From: Thiotrichaceae bacterium
GTDB taxonomy: Bacteria; Pseudomonadota; Gammaproteobacteria; Thiotrichales; Thiotrichaceae
Length of the DNA: 44,788 nt
Assembly (NCBI GenBank): GCA_026991755.1
Contig: JALXAX010000151.1
Coordinates: 1-44,788 of the forward strand
Direction of reading: 5' to 3'
The notes under the pieces were generated by a model, which was not told the origin of the DNA, did no database searches, and worked only from the letters and a program-made list of their open reading frames with translations. A program made the position numbers and the translations under genes. Below, one piece after another: positions 6,665 to 43,809 of the stretch (positions are counted from its first letter, which is position 1; every line of letters begins with the position of its first letter).

Positions 6665-6830
6665 AGCAATACTCTATGTAAAGGCTGCACTTTGATGATG
6701 ATGCAAGCCATAGTTAATAAAAAGTGCAATAGTAGCATTGATATTTAGACTGTCACAGAAGCTAGAGTGTAAATGAATAAATTCTCGACTCACTAATTCT
6801 GAAATGAATAAACCGTCTTTATTGACTATC

Positions 6831-6994
6831 ACCTAAATCCGTGACTTCAATGCGGATAACAGGGGGTAAGATATTGGTTTAGCACGGGATTTTAAAAAAT
6901 CTTAGCTTCACCCTTAGGTTAAGCGGGTATTTTTTAAACCCGTGATGAATCAATAGCTTATTCACTGTGCCGTAGTGAAGTCACGGATTCAGGT
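6831..6994. repeat. R5 foldback element (copy a, 164 bp)
   Basis: The ends are inverted: acctaaatccgtgacttca at the left and the complement of acctgaatccgtgacttca at the right. The rest of the two arms also match imperfectly, so the whole element can fold. A second copy is at 43611-43809, with about 35 extra bases in one arm. It lies in the 768-base gap between hemL and the porin; apart from the porin promoter nothing else recognisable is seen in that gap. Confidence 0.85.
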
Positions 6995-7325
6995 ATCAAT
7001 GCATATAGTTTGTATACACATAGAATCATCCTTCCTATCATTGTTGTGTTTATGACTCTTTTAGCTATTGCTAGAGGTCTTTAGCGATAGATAAAAGGTA
7101 ATGGCAATGATTAATTTTGTATACCTAGTGAAATAAAGGCTACTAACAGAGGCAGTCCGAGCAACTCTGTTTAAACAATACAACACCTCCTTAAGTTATT
7201 GTATTACAGGTACATAATAAATTAAAACATAAGTGAATAAAAATAAAAGAAAACTGAACCTACCATTATTTGTAGTTTTTTTGATACAAAATGAGAAGCA
7301 GTGTAGCGAAATTACAAAAAAGGAG

Positions 7326-7354
7326 TTGCAAAACACAAACTCTCGTCCTATATT
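7326..7354 (+). promoter_or_regulatory. Sigma-70-type promoter for the porin gene
   Basis: ttgcaa (7326-7331) and tatatt (7349-7354) are separated by 17 bases, about 80 bases upstream of the porin ATG. The spacing is ideal and both hexamers differ by one or two bases from consensus. Prediction by eye only. Confidence 0.5.
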
Positions 7355-7432
7355 AACCCCATCAACTTATGTTGAAAGTAGAAAACAATATAAAACGTTT
7401 TTAAACTGACTAGACTTAATAAGGAGTCAAAC

Positions 7433-8446
7433 ATGAAAAAAATACTTGCAATCGCAATCGCAGCTGGAATGGCTGCTCCTGCAATAGCGGATACAACGCT
7501 TTACGGACAGCTTCACGCTTCTATAGACGTTCTTGATGGTGATAACGCTTCTGTTAAAGAAACTACCATCTCTTCCAATAGCTCACGTATCGGTGTTAAA
7601 GGCTCATCAGAGCTTAGCGGTGGTCTGAAAACTATTTATCAAGCAGAGTGGGAAATTGACACAGGCGGTCAAAATACCACAGGGGATACTATATTCAAAA
7701 ATCGTAATCAGGTAGTTGGCATTGCGGGTAGCTTTGGTGCAGTACTTCTTGGACGACATGATACTCCTTTTAAGATTGTCGGTCGTAAAGCTGATTTATT
7801 TTGGTCAAGCCAGCTAGGTCAAAATCGTAACATCACTAGCCCTGGTCGCTGGGATATTCGTGCTAACAATGCTATTGCTTATCAATCACCCAAGATAGGT
7901 GGTGTTCAGGTACTTTATGGTCACTTCACAGATATAGGTGGAGATGATGGTAATACTGGAGACAGTATTAATGCAATCTATAAAGCAGGGCCACTTATGG
8001 TAGGGGTAGCTTACGAAACGTATGACACTGATGCCGCAATTAACTTTGGTCGTGAGCGTGATGCTTATCGTTTAATGGGATCCTATAAATTTGGCGCTGC
8101 TAAAGTTGTTGGCTTCTATCAAGATGAAGATAATGATGAAGCTGTTCTCGATAATGACGCTAGTGTCTGGGGTATAGGTGGTTCATATAAGATCACACCT
8201 GCTGGAACTGTTAAAGCTCAATATTATGAGCGTGATGAAGATAATAGCAACCTAGATGGAAAATTATTCGCTATCGGTTATGACCATAAGCTAGGCAAGA
8301 AAACGGATGTTTATGCTCAATATGCAAAAACTGAAGACCTAAATGGAATTGGTGGTGCAGGCCATGGTGAGAAAATAGGTTCTGATGGTGTTGGTGGTGC
8401 TGGAGATGCTTCAGGTATTTCTATAGGTATCCGTCACAAGTTCTAA
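7433..8446 (+). CDS. General outer-membrane porin (Gram-negative porin family)
   Basis: Trimeric beta-barrel porin for passive diffusion across the outer membrane. A signal peptide (residues 1-19, ending APAIA) precedes DTTLYGQLHASIDV, the usual first strand of the Neisseria/Burkholderia-type porin family. The first half has GVKGSSELSGGLKTIYQAEW and LLGRHDTPFK typical of strands and loop L3. The protein ends in IRHKF with the terminal phenylalanine needed for BAM insertion. At 337 residues it is a normal 16-strand size. A strong ribosome site (aaggag) lies 8 bases upstream of the ATG; it has its own promoter and terminator. Confidence 0.9.
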   Translation: MKKILAIAIAAGMAAPAIADTTLYGQLHASIDVLDGDNASVKETTISSNSSRIGVKGSSELSGGLKTIYQAEWEIDTGGQNTTGDTIFKNRNQVVGIAGSFGAVLLGRHDTPFKIVGRKADLFWSSQLGQNRNITSPGRWDIRANNAIAYQSPKIGGVQVLYGHFTDIGGDDGNTGDSINAIYKAGPLMVGVAYETYDTDAAINFGRERDAYRLMGSYKFGAAKVVGFYQDEDNDEAVLDNDASVWGIGGSYKITPAGTVKAQYYERDEDNSNLDGKLFAIGYDHKLGKKTDVYAQYAKTEDLNGIGGAGHGEKIGSDGVGGAGDASGISIGIRHKF

Positions 8447-8472
8447 TTTGATTTAGTCAAATTATTTAACTT

Positions 8473-8501
8473 AAGAAAGACACCCATTGGGTGTCTTTCT
8501 T
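8473..8501 (+). terminator. Intrinsic terminator after the porin
   Basis: The stem aagaaagacaccca (8473-8486) pairs with 8488-8501, and the right arm ends in a T-rich stretch. It starts 27 bases after the porin stop. The remaining 310 bases up to the next gene are very AT-rich; no further feature was recognised there. Confidence 0.85.
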
Positions 8502-8814
8502 GTTTATAAACTCACCTCACTCTGAAATAAGTTCTTGTTAGAAATATCATTCCAACTCTTCTATTATTCTCCTCTATTACAGAAATACACCACTAGACTC
8601 ACAACACTTCTTCTCTAAATGTTAAAAAGTAATAGTTATTGCTGACTTTTCTACCAAAAACCTGATAGATTGTAACTCACAGTAAACAATATTAATTTAT
8701 ATCAATATTTTCTGGTTAAAATCCACATAAAATTAATAAGATAAAACCAATAATTGAACTATAATCAGATCAACGAGGTCAGATGCTCTATCAAGGTGAA
8801 TCAGTTTCCATTTC

Positions 8815-9645
8815 ATGAAGTTTTTTAACTATTATCATTATCTTATTGGAACGGTCGCACTCGTTTTGTCAACGAGTTTATTGGCTACCAAACCTATCAG
8901 CATAGGTGCAAACGCCGCACCCTTGAGACTTACCCTTCAGGATAAAACAATAGCCACCGTTTCTATTCAGAACAACAAAATCATTGCCAAGCTACAAAAT
9001 GGCAAACTGCTTACTCTTGTTAATAACGTCAACTACATACCTGAGTATGCAAGGGATATTTGGATTCAAGATTTTAATTTTGATGGCTTTCAGGATATCG
9101 CTGTTACTACACGAGTTAACCCCGTTAGCAATGATCAGAACTATACTATTTTTACTTGGGAAAACCGATTAAAGCACTTCATACCACTGCATTTTGCTAA
9201 CGGCCTAAGCAACCTTGAAATTGCCCCTCATAAAAAACAGGTAACCAGCTCCTATCAAAGCAATGATTTCTGGACTGAGGATACTTACCGTTATAGTAAC
9301 AAACAGCCCTACCTCTATAGTAAATCTATTTTGGTTGCCTCTGATATTTGGCATACAACGGTATACAGCCCTGATCACAGAATTATTCGTAGCCTGGTTT
9401 CAAACGATGGTGAAGTCACCCGCCCTCCTCATCCCGTTTTAATAAAAGTAAGAAACACCGTTCCTTTATATCAACAACCACTACCTTCAACTAAACTTCC
9501 TCTTTCTCTACAGCAAGGAAATGTGGTGACAATTGTTGATTTTAAGCGTGGTCGAGGTCGTTTCTATTGGGTAAGTGTTAGAGCTAATATTAATAATGCG
9601 GTCTTAAAGGGGTGGACATTGCTGTCAAATCTGGTTTCTGGGTAG
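8815..9645 (+). CDS. Secreted protein with FG-GAP-like motif and SH3-like C-terminus
   Basis: Unknown function, 276 residues. A signal peptide (1-24, ending SLLA) is followed by a beta-rich region in which WIQDFNFDGFQDIAVTTR (residues 83-100) is a calcium-binding FG-GAP/VCBS-type loop, as in XAC2610-like proteins. The C-terminal 70 residues (IKVRNTVPLYQQPLPST, LQQGNVVTIVDF, YWVSVRA, GWTLLSNL) look like a bacterial SH3 domain, which often binds peptidoglycan. It is probably periplasmic or surface-exposed. It stands alone between the porin and a repeat. Confidence 0.7.
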   Translation: MKFFNYYHYLIGTVALVLSTSLLATKPISIGANAAPLRLTLQDKTIATVSIQNNKIIAKLQNGKLLTLVNNVNYIPEYARDIWIQDFNFDGFQDIAVTTRVNPVSNDQNYTIFTWENRLKHFIPLHFANGLSNLEIAPHKKQVTSSYQSNDFWTEDTYRYSNKQPYLYSKSILVASDIWHTTVYSPDHRIIRSLVSNDGEVTRPPHPVLIKVRNTVPLYQQPLPSTKLPLSLQQGNVVTIVDFKRGRGRFYWVSVRANINNAVLKGWTLLSNLVSG

Positions 9646-9703
9646 CCCTAAGCCCTAATGTAGCTGTTGTATTTTTGTATAGATGCCGTAGACAGCCAAC
9701 TTC

Positions 9704-9870
9704 AACCTAGAAAGCGCAGTTGGGCGCGAAAAAGACGCGTAAGATATTGGTGTGCATAGTGAAACAGAAAAATTCGTAGTCACCTTATTGGTGATAAGAA
9801 GTTTTTCTGTTTTGCTAGGTGCGCCAATAGCTTGCGTGGACTTTCGTGATCCAACTGAGTTTTCTAGGTT
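9704..9870. repeat. R6 foldback element (copy a, 167 bp) at the 3' end of murJ
   Basis: Inverted ends aacctagaaagcgcagttgg (9704-9723) and the complement of aacctagaaaactcagttgg (9851-9870) differ at three positions, and the arms match imperfectly through to the centre. The right end touches the murJ stop codon (9870-9872). An 113-base partial copy is at 32664-32776. A short open frame across it on the minus strand is a by-product of the repeat. Confidence 0.85.
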
Positions 9871-11423
9871 CAATGAGAAAGCATTCTGCGAAGATTAACA
9901 CCACTAGCCGTCAGTACTAATAAATAAACAACCATCGCTGTCACTACAAGCCCTAACAGAGCGCCCACACGTGACCAAATCAAAGCTGTTTGCCACCAAT
10001 CGTTCTCTGGCATTAAGTAGAGAATGCTCAATGTCATCATCACTACAGCCAAACCGATACGCAACAAATAACTCCAATAGCCCTTATCTATGGTTAATAC
10101 TTTTTCTTTGTGAAGTGTTAAATAAAGCATACTGGCATTCACATATGCCGCCACAGCCACCGCGAGTGCTAAACCTGCATGAGGGCCGATATAGCCAAGT
10201 TTATACCACGGGTAAACGATGACTGCGCTTAGAACAATATTAACAAACACCGAGATAATTCCTATTTTCACGGGCGTTTTAGTATCTTGTCGTGAGTAAA
10301 AACCAGGGGCTAAAACCTTCACCAAAATAAAGGCAGGTAAGCCGAGTGAATAAGTAATAAGGCTCATACTAGCCATCTCCACATCATGCCAGGCATCCGT
10401 ATTGTAGATCACTGTTACTAATATCGGTTTTGCTAAAAGTATCAAACCTACTGTAGCGGGTATTGCCACTAAAATAGCAAGCTTAATTGCCCAGTTCATC
10501 ATGGCATTAAATGATTCAGCATTGGTGTTAGCATAATCCTTCGAGAGTTTAGGTAGAATAACAACACCTAGTGCTACACCAAATAAGGCCAATGGGAACT
10601 CGATAAAGCGATCAGAGCTATACAACCAAGAGATAAAACCTTCACCTAATAAAGAAGCAATAACCGTATTGAGCAATAAATTAACTTGCGCTACGGATGA
10701 CCCAAAAAGTGCAGGAGTCATCAGCTTTAATACTTTCTTAACACCTTCATGTCCACGCTTATAGCGAAACTTTGGGATCATCCCTAAACGATATAAAGCA
10801 GGTAGTTGGAAGGCTAATTGTGCAATCCCCCCCATAAACACCCCCCATGCGACGGCTGTTATCGGCTCATCAAAGTATGGGGAAAAAAACACCATACTAA
10901 TAATCATTACCACATTAAGTAATACAGGTGTAAATGCAGGAATCGCAAACTTACCCCATGTATTTAAAATACTACTTGCTAATGCGGATAGTGATATAAA
11001 GAAAATATAGGGAAAAGTAATACGCAGCAAAGAAGCTGCCAACTCAGGCTCCGCACCTGCTTTAGTTTGAAAGCCAGGTGCAAAAACCATCATTAATAAT
11101 GGAGCAGCGATAACGCCAATCACACTAATAACAAATAATATTAATGCAAGCGTAGTCGCAACATGATCAAGCAAATCATGCAGCGCTTCTTTGCTTTTAG
11201 TTTCTTTATATTCAGCAAGAACAGGAACAAAGGCTAATGAGAATGCGCCTTCAGCAACAAATCGTCGGAGTAAATTAGGAATTTTATTAGCCGCTAAGAA
11301 TGCGTCTGTTGCACCGCCAACTGGAAATAAATGGAACAGTACCATATCGCGCACTAAACCCAATATGCGCGATATCATCGTCATTGCGCTGATAGCAGCG
11401 CTTGATTTTAATAAGCTCGCCAT
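9870..11423 (-). CDS. murJ: Lipid II flippase MurJ (MviN)
   Basis: Inner-membrane flippase of the MOP superfamily that moves lipid II outward for peptidoglycan synthesis. The N-terminus SAAISAMTMISRILGLVRDMV and the loop GGATDAFLAANKIPNLLRRF are diagnostic, as is the downstream FVPVLAEYKE. About 14 hydrophobic segments can be counted over 517 residues, the usual length (about 510). It follows the patatin-like gene by three bases with no clear ribosome site, so it is probably translated by coupling. The stop codon overlaps the end of an R6 repeat by one base. Confidence 0.96.
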   Translation of the reverse strand: MASLLKSSAAISAMTMISRILGLVRDMVLFHLFPVGGATDAFLAANKIPNLLRRFVAEGAFSLAFVPVLAEYKETKSKEALHDLLDHVATTLALILFVISVIGVIAAPLLMMVFAPGFQTKAGAEPELAASLLRITFPYIFFISLSALASSILNTWGKFAIPAFTPVLLNVVMIISMVFFSPYFDEPITAVAWGVFMGGIAQLAFQLPALYRLGMIPKFRYKRGHEGVKKVLKLMTPALFGSSVAQVNLLLNTVIASLLGEGFISWLYSSDRFIEFPLALFGVALGVVILPKLSKDYANTNAESFNAMMNWAIKLAILVAIPATVGLILLAKPILVTVIYNTDAWHDVEMASMSLITYSLGLPAFILVKVLAPGFYSRQDTKTPVKIGIISVFVNIVLSAVIVYPWYKLGYIGPHAGLALAVAVAAYVNASMLYLTLHKEKVLTIDKGYWSYLLRIGLAVVMMTLSILYLMPENDWWQTALIWSRVGALLGLVVTAMVVYLLVLTASGVNLRRMLSH

Positions 11424-12850: not shown

Positions 12851-13121
12851 CTAGTACTCCAACAAGTTAGGTTTGATGAATACAGCGAGTCAGGAAGCGG
12901 TTAGCCGCTAGGCGCGCCTTGCAGTGAATGGTTGTTCCCTTCACAAAAGGCGCAACAACGTGGATGACCGCTTCCTGACTCGCCCGAAGTGAGCAACCCA
13001 AAGCGTTCAATACTGCGTTATGGGTCTTGCCAAGGGAACTACCATTGCCTGCAACCCATGCCTTATCTTGAGCGCTTTGGATTGCTCTGTATCCATCAAA
13101 CCTAAGTTGTTGGAGTACTAG
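12851..13121 (+). repeat. R2 multi-hairpin element (copy a, 271 bp)
   Basis: The ends are inverted: ctagtactccaacaagttag at the left and its near-exact complement at the right, about 28 matching bases. Inside are two long hairpins. One has the perfect 17-base arms gcgagtcaggaagcggt (12885-12901) and 12967-12983. The other has 20-base arms with two mismatches (12991-13010 and 13068-13087). An identical-length copy in the opposite orientation is at 19461-19731. With the abutting R1a element it fills the gap between the patatin gene and ccmI. Confidence 0.9.
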
Positions 13122-13281
13122 GGCATCTCTATTAATTCTGGTCGGAGTTGCTGTGAGATAGAATTTGTTAGATTTTTGATAGAAAAGTTAGCAATAGCCG
13201 TAGCTATTGGTCACTTTTATAGCGAAAATATAGCAGGTTCTAGCCTCAGCAAAACGAACCATGAATTAATAGAGGTGCCCT
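13120..13281 (+). repeat. R1 foldback element (copy a, 162 bp)
   Basis: The ends are agggcatctctattaattc and the complement of agggcacctctattaattc. The two halves are complementary along most of their length, with the centre at ttagcaatagccgtagctat. It directly abuts R2 copy a and ends 30 bases from the ccmI stop. It is nearly identical to 32880-33041. Confidence 0.9.
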
Positions 13282-19460: not shown

Positions 19461-19731
19461 CTAGTACTCCAGCAACTTAGGTTTGATGGATACAGAGCAA
19501 TCCAAAGCGCTCAAGACAAGGCTTGGGTTGCAGGCAATGGTTGTTCCCTTGGCAAGACCCATAACGCAGTATTGAGCGCTTTGGGTTGCTCCCTTCGGGC
19601 GAGCCAGGAAGCGGTCATCCGCGTTGTTGCGTCTTTTGTGAAGGGAACAACCATTCCCTGCAAGACGCGCCTAGCGGCTAACCGCTTCCTGACTCGCTGT
19701 ATTCATCAAACCTAACTTGTTGGAGTACTAG
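19461..19731 (-). repeat. R2 multi-hairpin element (copy b, 271 bp) inside the ccm operon
   Basis: Same length and internal hairpins as 12851-13121 but in the opposite orientation. It lies in the 477-base gap between ccmB and ccmC, so either the operon is transcribed through it or ccmC-ccmI have their own promoter. The two copies flank ccmC-ccmI as inverted repeats about 6.3 kb apart. Confidence 0.9.
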
Positions 19732-21174: not shown

Positions 21175-21373
21175 AGGGCACCTCTATTAATTCATGGTTC
21201 GTTTTGCTGAGGCTAGAATCTGCTATATTTTCGCTATAAAAGTAACCAATAGCTACGGCTATTGCTAACTTTTCTATCAAAAATCTAACAAATTCTATCT
21301 GCTGAAGCTTCTAAGTTTCGCTAAAGCTCAGCTAAGTCACAGCAACTCCGACCAGAATTAATAGAGATACCCT
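21175..21373 (-). repeat. R1 foldback element (copy b, full-length 199 bp) upstream of ccmA
   Basis: The ends are agggcacctctattaattc and the complement of agggtatctctattaattc. Compared with copies at 13120 and 32880 it has an extra block of about 38 bases (with gcttctaagtttcgctaaag), so those copies are probably deletion derivatives. It lies directly upstream of ccmA. Confidence 0.9.
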
Positions 21374-22368: not shown

Positions 22369-22527
22369 GAGACCTTTGCATAAAAGGATGGCGAGAGAAA
22401 AATGAGCGAAATTTTCTCTATTTTTGCTAAAAAAGAGGGTAATAGCCGAGCTATTGGCCGAATTTTTAGCAGAAATAGAGGAAATTCGAGCCATTTTAAT
22501 CCGTCATATCTTTCGTGCAAAGGTCTC
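22369..22527. repeat. R3 foldback element (copy a, 159 bp)
   Basis: The ends gagacctttgca and its exact complement enclose arms that pair imperfectly over the full length; the centre is taatagccgagctattggc. Another 159-base copy is at 36130-36288 and a solo end at 35890-35917. The bases tttat flank both sides. It lies about 100 bases upstream of argA. Confidence 0.88.
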
Positions 22528-28923: not shown

Positions 28924-29110
28924 TAACTACTCAGTGTAATTCGTAACTGCTCAGATTGCCCACTACTTTGTTCAAGAGCAAGGCGAAAGCACGCAGTTTA
29001 TAGGTATAAATGAGCATTTTCAAAGCTACCGCGTCCTGCTTTCGCTCCTCACCTACTTCCCTGTAGGCGACGCAGCTATTGGGCAAAGTAGTGGGTAAGC
29101 TGAGTAGTTA
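28924..29110 (+). repeat. R4 foldback element (copy a, 187 bp)
   Basis: The ends taactactcag and its exact complement enclose arms that share cccactactttg with its complement further in. The middle has gcgaaagcacgc near its mirrored gcgtcctgctttcgc. A near-identical copy is at 35929-36117. It occupies the space between two divergent operons, where both promoters must lie. Confidence 0.88.
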
Positions 29111-32663: not shown

Positions 32664-32776
32664 GAAAAAACAGAAAACAACACCGTTACCAACAAGGTGA
32701 CTACGATCTTTTCTGTTTCACTATGCACACCAATAACTTACACATCTTATTCGCACCCAACTGCGCTTTCTAGGTT
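32664..32776 (-). repeat. R6 partial copy (copy b)
   Basis: The right end is the complement of aacctagaaagcgcagttgg, identical to the R6a end, and the match continues for about 110 bases with an internal hairpin (acagaaaa...ttttctgt). The other R6 half is absent. It is joined to the transposase fragment. Confidence 0.8.
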
Positions 32777-32879: not shown

Positions 32880-33041
32880 AGGGTATCTCTATTAATTCTG
32901 GTCGAAGTTGCTGTGAGATAGAATTTGTTAGATTTTTGATAGAAAAGTTAGCAATAGCCGTAGCTATTGGTCACTTTTATAGCGAAAATATAGCAGATTC
33001 TAGCCTCAGCAAAACGAACCATGAATTAATAGAGGTGCCCT
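32880..33041 (+). repeat. R1 foldback element (copy e, 162 bp) just upstream of a porin gene
   Basis: Nearly identical to 13120-13281, with the same length, ends and 38-base internal deletion. Its right end is only 35 bases before the porin start codon (33077). An open frame inside the repeat runs on in frame into the porin, which can mislead start prediction. Confidence 0.9.
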
Positions 33042-34239: not shown

Positions 34240-34422
34240 AGGGCTGTTCAATGCTAGGAATCTGTTCATGGAATAGACAAAGTTCCCTCCACCTAGCAGG
34301 GGGAGGGTTAGGGCGGGGGTAGATAGTCTGATAAAAAAGACGACCTTAGAACATCTCCTCTCTCCCCAGCCCTCCCCCCAAAGGGGAGAGGGAGCTTATT
34401 TCATTTAGCATTGAACAGCCCT
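34240..34422. repeat. R7 element (copy b, complete) with flanking direct repeat
   Basis: Perfect 16-base inverted ends (agggctgttcaatgct at 34240-34255 and its complement at 34407-34422) enclose the G/C-tract core shared with 1-158. The 10-base sequence cctgaagacc occurs just outside both ends (34229-34238 and 34424-34433), which looks like a target-site duplication. It fills the gap between the channel gene and the flippase gene; nothing else was seen there. Confidence 0.88.
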
Positions 34423-34603: not shown

Positions 34604-35920
34604 ATGTCCGCTAATAAAGGTCTACTTTTACAAAGCCTATATACCATCATTGCTCGCTTTACAGGTGTTGGCTTAAATTTCGCATTGCAGATCCTTTTGG
34701 CACGCATCTTATCACTTAGTCATTACGGTGATATACGCATGGTCATCGTCATGGTGACTAGCGTAGCATTGGTTAGCCGAATCGGTGTTGATCAGTTAAT
34801 TGTTAAAGAAGTAGCAAGCGTAGAAGATAATCAACACACCTTCGGCAGCGCTTTTTTAAAACGAAGCTATAGTGTTGTTTTTATCAGCTCACTTGTATTC
34901 ATAAGCTTATGGATACTGTTTAGCCCTTTTCTGCAGCAGACTTTTTTCGACGATATTACTCTCACTAATTTAGTCATTGCTAGCCTGGGAGTGCTGTTTT
35001 TTAATGTAATTACCATCAATGCTTTCTACTTTAAAGCATTGCATAAACCTTCCGCATCAGCTCTCACACAAAACGCTTTACCTGCTATTAGCTTCTTATT
35101 ACTTGTTTTAGTATTTTGGCAAGACTTTCCTATTAATCAAGCCTATATCAACGTTTACACACTATCTAATGTACTGGCAGGTATCATATCGTTTTTAGTG
35201 CTTCTTCCATGGCTAAAAAACAAGCAAGATATCAAGAGCAAAAAGTTAGCAACACAACATAATATTCCTAACCTAAGAACCTTAACTAAGCGCGCTTTGC
35301 CACTAGCCCCTATCTCCGTATTTTCATTTTTAATGCTCTCTTCTGACGCATTTATGGTGAGCGCAATGCTTGGCAATGAAAAGTTTGGTCTCTATACCAC
35401 AGCGGCCTCCATCTCTTTTCTTAGCCTTTTTGTTTTAGGTGCATTAGATGCCACCATTTACCCACGTTTATTAAACATCAGCAAAAACAAACCTGATCAA
35501 TTACGTGGCTTCTTCTGGAAAGCCACCTCATTGGTTGTCTTCGGGTTATTAGCAGTGACCATCGTTATGGCTGTACTAGCTAAACCTACATTGTGGTTAT
35601 TTGGCCCACAGTTTCAGCAAGCAGCAACCGTTTTATTGATTTTACTAGTCGCTCAATGGCTTCGTGCCACAAGCCTTACCTTCTCTTTTATGTTTATCAT
35701 CAAAGAGAAGGTAAAATATTTAAATATTATTTTAGTTGTCGCGTTAATTATAAACTTGGTCGCCAATTACCTACTTATCCAAAGCCAAGGTATGCAAGGT
35801 GCCGCAATAGCTACATTATTAGCTAATGGTTTCCTTGCTGGCTTTGTTGTACTACTCTTCTACCGACAGAAGTTACTTGCAGGCTATAAGAGACCTTTGC
35901 ACGAAAGATATGACGGATAA
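34604..35920 (+). CDS. Polysaccharide flippase (Wzx-like, MOP superfamily)
   Basis: Probable transporter of undecaprenyl-linked oligosaccharide across the inner membrane. 438 residues with 12-14 hydrophobic helices; the N-terminus GLLLQSLYTIIARFTGVGLN followed by YGDIRMVIVMVTSVALVSRIG is the polysaccharide-biosynthesis-protein pattern. The last residues (RPLHERYDG) are encoded by an R3 repeat end at 35890-35917, so the original C-terminus may have been changed by that insertion. It is the first gene of an eight-gene polysaccharide cluster. Confidence 0.88.
   Translation: MSANKGLLLQSLYTIIARFTGVGLNFALQILLARILSLSHYGDIRMVIVMVTSVALVSRIGVDQLIVKEVASVEDNQHTFGSAFLKRSYSVVFISSLVFISLWILFSPFLQQTFFDDITLTNLVIASLGVLFFNVITINAFYFKALHKPSASALTQNALPAISFLLLVLVFWQDFPINQAYINVYTLSNVLAGIISFLVLLPWLKNKQDIKSKKLATQHNIPNLRTLTKRALPLAPISVFSFLMLSSDAFMVSAMLGNEKFGLYTTAASISFLSLFVLGALDATIYPRLLNISKNKPDQLRGFFWKATSLVVFGLLAVTIVMAVLAKPTLWLFGPQFQQAATVLLILLVAQWLRATSLTFSFMFIIKEKVKYLNIILVVALIINLVANYLLIQSQGMQGAAIATLLANGFLAGFVVLLFYRQKLLAGYKRPLHERYDG
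35890..35917 (+). repeat. Solo R3 end within the flippase gene
   Basis: gagacctttgcacgaaagat and the following bases match the R3 right end (reversed). It supplies the last nine codons of the flippase and its stop codon. An R4 element starts about ten bases further on. Confidence 0.75.
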
Positions 35921-35928
35921 AAATGAGC

Positions 35929-36117
35929 GTAACTACTCAGCGTAACCCGTAACTGCTCAGATTGCCCCCTACTTTGTTCAAGAGCAAGGCGAAAGCGCGC
36001 AGTTTATAAGTATAAATGAGCACTTTTAAAGCTACCGCGTCCTGCTTTCGCTCCTCACCTACATCCCTGTAGGCGACGCAGCTATTGGGCAAAGTAGAGG
36101 GTAAGCTGAGTAGTTAC
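35929..36117 (+). repeat. R4 foldback element (copy b, 189 bp)
   Basis: Near-identical and same orientation as 28924-29110; ends gtaactactcag and its complement. Together with R3 copies on both sides it fills the 398-base gap between the flippase and polymerase genes. Confidence 0.9.
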
Positions 36118-36129
36118 AAAATAAACCAC

Positions 36130-36288
36130 GAGACCTTTGCATGAAAGTATGGCGAGAGAAAAAAGAGCGTAATTTTTCAGATTTTGTCTAAACAGGAAGG
36201 TAATAGCCGAGCTATTGGCTGAGTTTTTAGACAAAATCTGGGAAATTTAAGCCTTTTTAATCCGTCATATCTTTCGTGCAAAGGTCTC
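36130..36288. repeat. R3 foldback element (copy b, 159 bp)
   Basis: Same length as 22369-22527, with perfect 12-base inverted ends (gagacctttgca). The right end is 30 bases upstream of the polymerase start codon. Confidence 0.88.
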
Positions 36289-43610: not shown

Positions 43611-43809
43611 ACCTGAATCCGTGACTTCAATGCGGATAACAGGGGATAAGATATTGGTTTAGCATGGGATTTTAAAAATCTTAACTTCACCCTTAGGTTT
43701 AGTGAGCACTACCGTACTCAATTATACTTTAGTGTAAGCGGGCATTTTTTAAACCCGTGATGAATCAATAGCTTATTCTCTGTGCCGTAGTGAAGTCACG
43801 GATTCAGGT
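43611..43809. repeat. R5 foldback element (copy b, 199 bp)
   Basis: Perfect 19-base inverted ends acctgaatccgtgacttca. The arms pair imperfectly along the element; compared with 6831-6994 it has about 35 extra bases near the centre (around 43703-43736), so one copy is a deletion or the other an expansion. It begins 31 bases after the acyltransferase stop. Confidence 0.9.

Follow-up and report, generated by a model that had tools for sequence, protein, structure and literature searches.

A core word shared by the palindromic elements R5 and R6 of a Thiotrichaceae bacterium and by differently ended families of miniature inverted-repeat transposable elements

The window analyzed here is the whole 44,788-nucleotide stretch of contig JALXAX010000151.1 (positions 1 to 44,788, forward strand) from the GenBank assembly GCA_026991755.1 of a Thiotrichaceae bacterium. 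It contains two palindromic repeat elements, R5 and R6, which hold the same short word at nearly the same distance from their ends. This core recurs in other palindromic families of the same genome and at the hairpin tip of differently ended elements in distant bacteria. With slightly better than even confidence, the core can be read as a conserved and probably functional sequence-specific protein site within modular miniature inverted-repeat transposable elements (MITEs); we infer both the selection on the core and the binding protein from sequence comparison.

R5 and R6 are MITEs by their anatomy, being short and dispersed in copies, with terminal repeats and target duplications, and they represent two families of non-autonomous palindromic MITEs, a known kind of element. 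Both have a length of about 163–167 bp and inverted terminal repeats of about 19 bp that begin with ACCT and end with AGGT. R5 is 163–164 bp long in 46 of 59 copies and has no transposase gene, and the longest stop-free run is 33 codons in the R5 window copy and 54 codons in the 165-bp R6 window copy. Target duplications of 3 bp flank 53 of the 59 curated R5 copies and six of the ten R6 copies bounded by both ends, all six being of the form TNA; R6 also occurs as fragments. As DNA, both elements fold nearly end to end as imperfect palindromes (z of −11.6 for R5 and −10.4 for R6 against shuffles), and the same A.G stem mismatch lies inside the core of each, with GATATT opposite AATAGC. A first look at the own genome gave 121 R5 candidates (40 scored, 41 places listed). 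Among the 57 genomes searched, R5 matches were found in 12, the own genome included, several of them as short fragments only, while R6 matches were confined to the own genome.

One arm of R5 and one arm of R6 have a 13-nucleotide word, GTAAGATATTGGT, in common, and the opposite arms share nine nucleotides. In 4,000 dinucleotide shuffles, no 13-nucleotide word common to both elements turned up at matching offsets (to within one base), and the nine-nucleotide word of the right arm arose in three of 4,000 shuffles at the same offset and in 80 of 4,000 at any offset. The core starts 35–37 bases inside the element ends (37 from the left and 35 from the right in R5, 36 from either side in R6). A sequence-only reading of the window had already pointed to this motif, and its presence was confirmed: TAAGATATTGG occurs three times in the window without a mismatch, in both R5 copies and in R6, and the opposite arms read as quoted, TAAGCTATTGA in the two R5 copies and CAAGCTATTGG in R6, all on the minus strand (Table 1). 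The motif was described as 12 bases long, but the quoted string has 11 bases and the window copies share 13. The common position 37 applies to R5; in R6 the word starts at 36 from the ACCT end, the earlier count having begun at 9704. The further statement that the terminal 20 bases of the two elements are unrelated goes too far, as both start with ACCT and are flanked by 3-bp duplications, and as IS5-type remnants in the same genome have ends, (A/G)CCTAGAATC(T/C)TCAGTT, that look intermediate between those of R5 and R6.

Conservation was assessed on a table of 59 R5 copies, comprising 35 from the own genome (taken from the best-scoring matches and from a 401-kb genome sample) and 24 from five other genomes. 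A first table of 74 elements held spurious end pairs, and a filter on identity and length dropped 15, so that weakly matching copies were removed before conservation and positions were counted. From the other genomes, 20 of the 40 fetched stretches entered the table, the rest being fragments, diverged copies, or stretches with no clear element. With variants allowed, the left word starts at 37 in 33 of the 35 own copies and 19 of the 24 foreign ones, and the right word starts at 35 in 31 of 35 and 21 of 24, respectively. The conservation score was 0.909 for the block at 37–47, 0.857 for the right-arm block, 0.828 for the interior, and 0.90 for the ends, and the level of the left block is reached by four of 106 interior windows, that block among them. 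In an alignment of 28 copies drawn from five genomes, in which the row L236 is oriented opposite to the others, the core columns reach 0.96 and 0.98 and the flanking stem 0.77 and 0.78. Changes on both sides were found in 10 of 53 stem pairs (56 cells vs. 19 in shuffles and 2–10 in slid controls); among these ten is the letter that opens the quoted 11-mer (T or C), and no covarying pair falls within columns 39–50, AAG-TATTGGTT. The R5 pattern is one of conserved ends, a variable stem with pairing kept, and a conserved core. The sequence-only reading had named a conserved block against variable ends as what would support a shared recognition site; the core columns are indeed fixed, but conservation at the ends is of about the same level. 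Likewise, the spacing is mostly kept in other copies, but the letters of the word are retained less strictly, TAAGATATTGG being read in 14 of the 35 own copies.

The core is abundant in the 401-kb sample, a selection of contigs in which R5 or R6 had already been found. Its half-site AGCTATTGG is the most common 9-mer of the sample; 50 copies were counted over the two strands, where 9-mers of the same composition average 3.6. According to a listing read by eye, 44 of the 50 copies lie inside palindromic elements belonging to families A, B, C, and R6, and R5 has AGCTATTGA in place of AGCTATTGG. A search blind to the core found 83 palindromes in the sample, of which 45 carry AG(A/C)TATTG or AATAGC(3–4)GCTATT where 1.3 would be expected from shuffles, these 45 falling into few families and hence not being independent. 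Although the sample comes from R5 and R6 contigs, the whole-genome count of 97 matches per strand to AATAGC(3–4)GCTATTGG, with none for the reversed control, agrees with the abundance of the core. Uptake sequences and other general genome signals were considered as an explanation and rejected, since only about six of the 50 AGCTATTGG copies lie outside elements, against the composition-matched 9-mer mean of 3.6.

In other bacteria, AATAGC(3–4 nt)GCTATT forms the hairpin tip of differently ended elements in Desulfuromonadales, in Comamonadaceae, and in G049, a genome of the same class as that of the window. Nine of the 57 related genomes have matches to AATAGC(3–4)GCTATTGG, with 0–1 for the reversed-pattern controls; the matches are numerous in three of the nine, namely the own genome, G049 with 21 per strand, and G021, of the same family, with seven and five (G005 is of the same genus as the window genome). 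The stem in G049 is identical, and the loop (AGC, GTT, or GGTT), arms, and ends differ. The pattern CCAATAGCT(N)CGGCTATT was found in at least 88 stretches. Among 81 listed matches in 80 of the stretches, a rough sorting by flanks gave 44 of a Desulfuromonadales kind, with the ends CTAGCAGCCTGTCGGACT where they were read, 15 of one Burkholderiales kind, five of another, and a remainder of 17; the last include palindromic elements in Sulfurimonas (L093) and Thiotrichaceae (L100, L157), as well as several matches that look like coding sequence or chance. With the ends trimmed and the core masked, the interiors form the groups A/B/B2, DSM/COM/GEO, and ACI/RHO/COM3. Ends may differ inside one interior group, as in A vs. 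B and ACI vs. RHO, and no clear similarity was detected between the groups or between R5, R6, or C and all of the others (z ≤ 3.6). When Desulfuromonadales elements were defined by their ends, 12 of 14 distinct ones had the exact core. Among five plasmid stretches resembling a Burkholderiales interior, L295 has the complete core, L294 has it with one mismatch, and L291, from a Cupriavidus plasmid, has a paired double change, CGATAGC...GCTATCG. Searching plasmids with family A and R6 yielded nothing relevant. A strict search for a 16-bp palindrome found matches in two of 398 genomes and missed copies in the own genome, showing it to be too strict. Several contigs of G452 (C26, C39, C41, C64, C73, C76, and C116) start less than about 100 bases from a core, as if assembly halts at the hairpin.

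The ends of these elements point to insertion sequences (ISs). In the own genome, R6-like single ends adjoin broken IS5-type transposase genes (L071, L080) and in L072 an open IS5-type gene lies between family A ends; the ends of the Desulfuromonadales family flank an IS1182 transposase on a Pseudomonas putida plasmid. AATAGC is absent near the ends of this IS1182 and of a same-ended, unannotated Mesorhizobium element, which suggests that the core does not derive from that parent, and inheritance of the core from an IS parent finds no support here. By eye, the interiors of R5 and R6 bear no resemblance to the IS sequences in L071, L072, and L080; AATAGCTATT, near the right end of the family A parent L072, could not be interpreted. 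R6-type ends with TNA duplications also surround an unrelated palindromic interior (L020:1282-1518, L054:9442-9679, and L058:18359-18605), and a 74-bp deletion-type element with the same features (L067:6530) resembles the L080 end. A search with PF13586 gave one match, under the cut-off. A 1.9-kb end pair in G452 was rejected, as it encloses ordinary-looking frames and not a transposase. At L079:1453-2091, a PF01609 (DDE transposase) frame runs into a solitary R5 end, and a neighboring frame resembles, by eye, a VapC-type toxin.

Each element can be seen as three layers, namely ends that a transposase would use, a long stem that drifts with its pairing kept, and a core word, (Y)AAG(A/C)TATTG(G/A) opposite its near-complement, that is mostly retained. 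An IS5-group transposase may move R5 and R6 in trans, and the ends of such MITEs may more generally be used by IS5- or IS1182-type transposases. The core is probably a sequence-specific site read, as a duplex or as an extruded hairpin, by a protein on which the elements depend, and would then be retained while ends and stem get replaced. In R5 and R6 specifically, the core plausibly also goes back to an element ancestral to both. The half-site AGCTATTGG forms the core in other palindromic MITE families of the own genome and the tip of the hairpin in MITEs elsewhere, ends and arms being different. The recurrence of the core in elements with different ends and in distant bacteria suggests a role for the elements, and a binding site, one of two explanations offered by the sequence-only reading, is reasonable because the core recurs in families without other similarity. 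A broader proposal can be made only tentatively, namely that an undescribed factor, needed by the palindromic MITEs of many bacteria, may recognize CCAATAGC...GCTATTGG as its site, and that the interior may be a transferable module, repeatedly given new transposase ends, rather than the filler of a decayed IS.

Several results weigh against a selected protein site. No candidate for the binding protein was identified, nor was a parent IS or autonomous element with R5 ends found. The half-sites of R5 and R6 run in the direction opposite to those of A, B, and C, and palindrome families 3, 4, 7, 8, and 9 of the core-blind search are without the core. Within families, the conservation of the core is only moderately above that of the rest, windows as high numbering 36 of 163 in A and five of 165 in B, and 19 of 108 windows are as conserved as the core in the Desulfuromonadales set. 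Since the 88 or more stretches were picked by the core, its conservation there is by construction. The plasmid stretches L292 and L293 (weak matches, E of 0.1 and 4) have another tip and no core, and plasmid relatives without an intact core indicate that it is not indispensable. In R5 itself, 14 of the 35 own copies form a large subfamily reading TAAGAGATTGG, and the number of pair types is not above that of shuffles (302 of 500 as high).

A somewhat unlikely alternative is descent without function, by which the core is the undrifted remnant of old palindromic MITEs whose ends were swapped as new transposases came. The interiors of A and B are homologous despite their different ends (z of 9.1, ends trimmed and core masked), and the ACI interior matches those of RHO and COM3 (z of 8.3–10.1) with different ends. 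R5 and R6 are also alike in their ACCT ends, length, core offset, and A.G mismatch, the features that favor the common ancestor proposed by the sequence-only reading; no similarity between the two was detected outside the core, however (z of 1.5). A neutral remnant should drift like the flanking stem, which the R5 core does not, and across interior groups the core is the only clear similarity.

Recombination or template switching between palindromes, spreading the core without any need for it, is less probable still. A chimera at L061:10437, read by eye, joins a family B left half to a family A right half at AGCTATTGG, and in an R6 copy (L005:1506-1671) the inner hairpin is inverted relative to the outer arms, the break lying at the core; breakpoints at these places suggest that exchange occurs, and the R6-type ends on a quite different interior mentioned above fit it as well. 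Such exchange, however, leaves unexplained that other lineages have this core between different arms, and why a word rather than longer tracts is common. Selection of the transcribed hairpin for a terminator or RNA-processing role is very improbable. The compensatory changes that maintain pairing are in its favor, including the core of Cupriavidus plasmid L291, changed on both sides with pairing retained, but neither the window nor 10 core-bearing loci gave an Rfam match at the gathering threshold, and the 83 palindromes have no preference for gene ends. In a crude open reading frame (ORF) context, 36 of them are tandem, 16 divergent, and 11 convergent, which matches the expectation from intergenic lengths (57/26/17 per cent), with seven inside ORFs and 13 at sequence edges. 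That the core is just a common AT-rich string can practically be dismissed: with two mismatches allowed the window does have a modest excess (28 matches vs. 19.5 expected, four of 100 shuffles being as high), but chance and composition are ruled out by the absence of the shared 13-mer from all 4,000 shuffles and by the rank of AGCTATTGG in the sample.

The usual classification of bacterial MITEs relies on their ends and on tracing them to a parent IS. REP/BIME and REPIN elements are high-copy palindromes whose families have a short conserved tag in common; R5 and R6 differ from them in having terminal repeats and 3-bp duplications. Correia/NEMIS and ERIC are palindromic MITE-like repeats of 100–170 bp, and Correia has an internal site for a host protein, IHF. 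The core of R5 and R6 is unlike the IHF consensus, and Correia/NEMIS and ERIC were compared by description only. R5 and R6 resemble IS5-group MITEs in size, terminal repeats, duplications, and copy number, and similar-ended IS5-type remnants are present in the genome. In the portion of the literature account available, prokaryotic MITEs are elements of less than 500 bp with terminal inverted repeats, short target duplications, and many copies, and are described by their ends and duplications, as transposons decayed inside (PMC10969869). Unlike MITEs as that portion describes them, R5 and R6 have an interior core common to differently ended families. The same portion includes Chunjie of Geobacter uraniireducens, a multi-copy MITE of variable length (178–235 bp), which can be likened to the core-bearing MITEs by description only, as a multi-copy MITE of a Geobacter genome (PMC10969869).

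The features of the window are collected in Table 1. For family C, a target duplication was seen in none of four elements. At 35890-36288, a truncated A arm, a C element, and a complete A element are adjacent and look nested. Another palindrome family (12852-13120 and 19462-19730) has the ends TAGTACTCCA and the tip AATGGTTGTTCCCTT, found seven times in the sample; the tip AATGGTCATTCCCTT of the Azotobacter plasmid stretch L292 resembles it, and tips of the AATGGTTGTTCCCTT type are possibly a second shared core. A further repeat, marked by C-rich and G-rich tracts (CCCTCCCCCC), has two copies, at 1-158 and 34264-34420, which are 90–97% alike.

Table 1. Positions of R5, R6, their core words, and other palindromic elements in the 44,788-nucleotide window.
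Feature	Position	Strand	Details
R5 copy 1	6831..6994	+	palindromic MITE, 164 bp, ends ACCT...AGGT
Target duplication of R5 copy 1	6828..6830 (left), 6995-6997 (right)		3 bp, ATC
Core, R5 copy 1, left arm	6867..6877	+	TAAGATATTGG; element positions 37-47
Core, R5 copy 1, right arm	6950..6960	-	TAAGCTATTGA; 35-45 from right end
R5 copy 2	43611..43809	+	199 bp, loop longer; core words 43647-43657 (+) and 43765-43775 (-)
R6	9705..9869	+	palindromic MITE, 165 bp, ends ACCT...AGGT
Target duplication of R6	9702..9704 (left), 9870-9872 (right)		3 bp, TCA
Core, R6, left arm	9740..9750	+	TAAGATATTGG; element positions 36-46
Core, R6, right arm	9824..9834	-	CAAGCTATTGG; 36-46 from right end
R6 partial copy	32688..32776	-	one arm and part of loop; core TAAGTTATTGG at 32730-32740
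Family A MITE	22369..22527	+	palindromic; ends GAGACCTTTGCA; tip core AATAGCCGAGCTATTGG, AGCTATTGG at 22449
Family A MITE, copy 2	36130-36288		
Family B MITE	13121..13280	+	palindromic; ends GGGCAYCTCTATTAA or GGGTAYCTCTATTAA; tip core AATAGCCGTAGCTATTGG, AGCTATTGG at 13202
Family B MITE, more copies	21176-21372, 32881-33040		
Family C element	28924..29110	+	palindromic; ends TAACTACTCAG; AGCTATTGG at 29074
Family C element, copy 2	35930-36116		

MITEs themselves are known, and the unusual part is a core that crosses families and lineages. Literature searches turned up no description of this core in MITEs, a weak negative that does not establish its absence from print. Where differently ended families of distant lineages have one core in common, the implication is that the interior can be the older, selected part of an element. 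The shared core provides a handle for finding MITEs without knowledge of their ends, and it makes control by a common factor testable.

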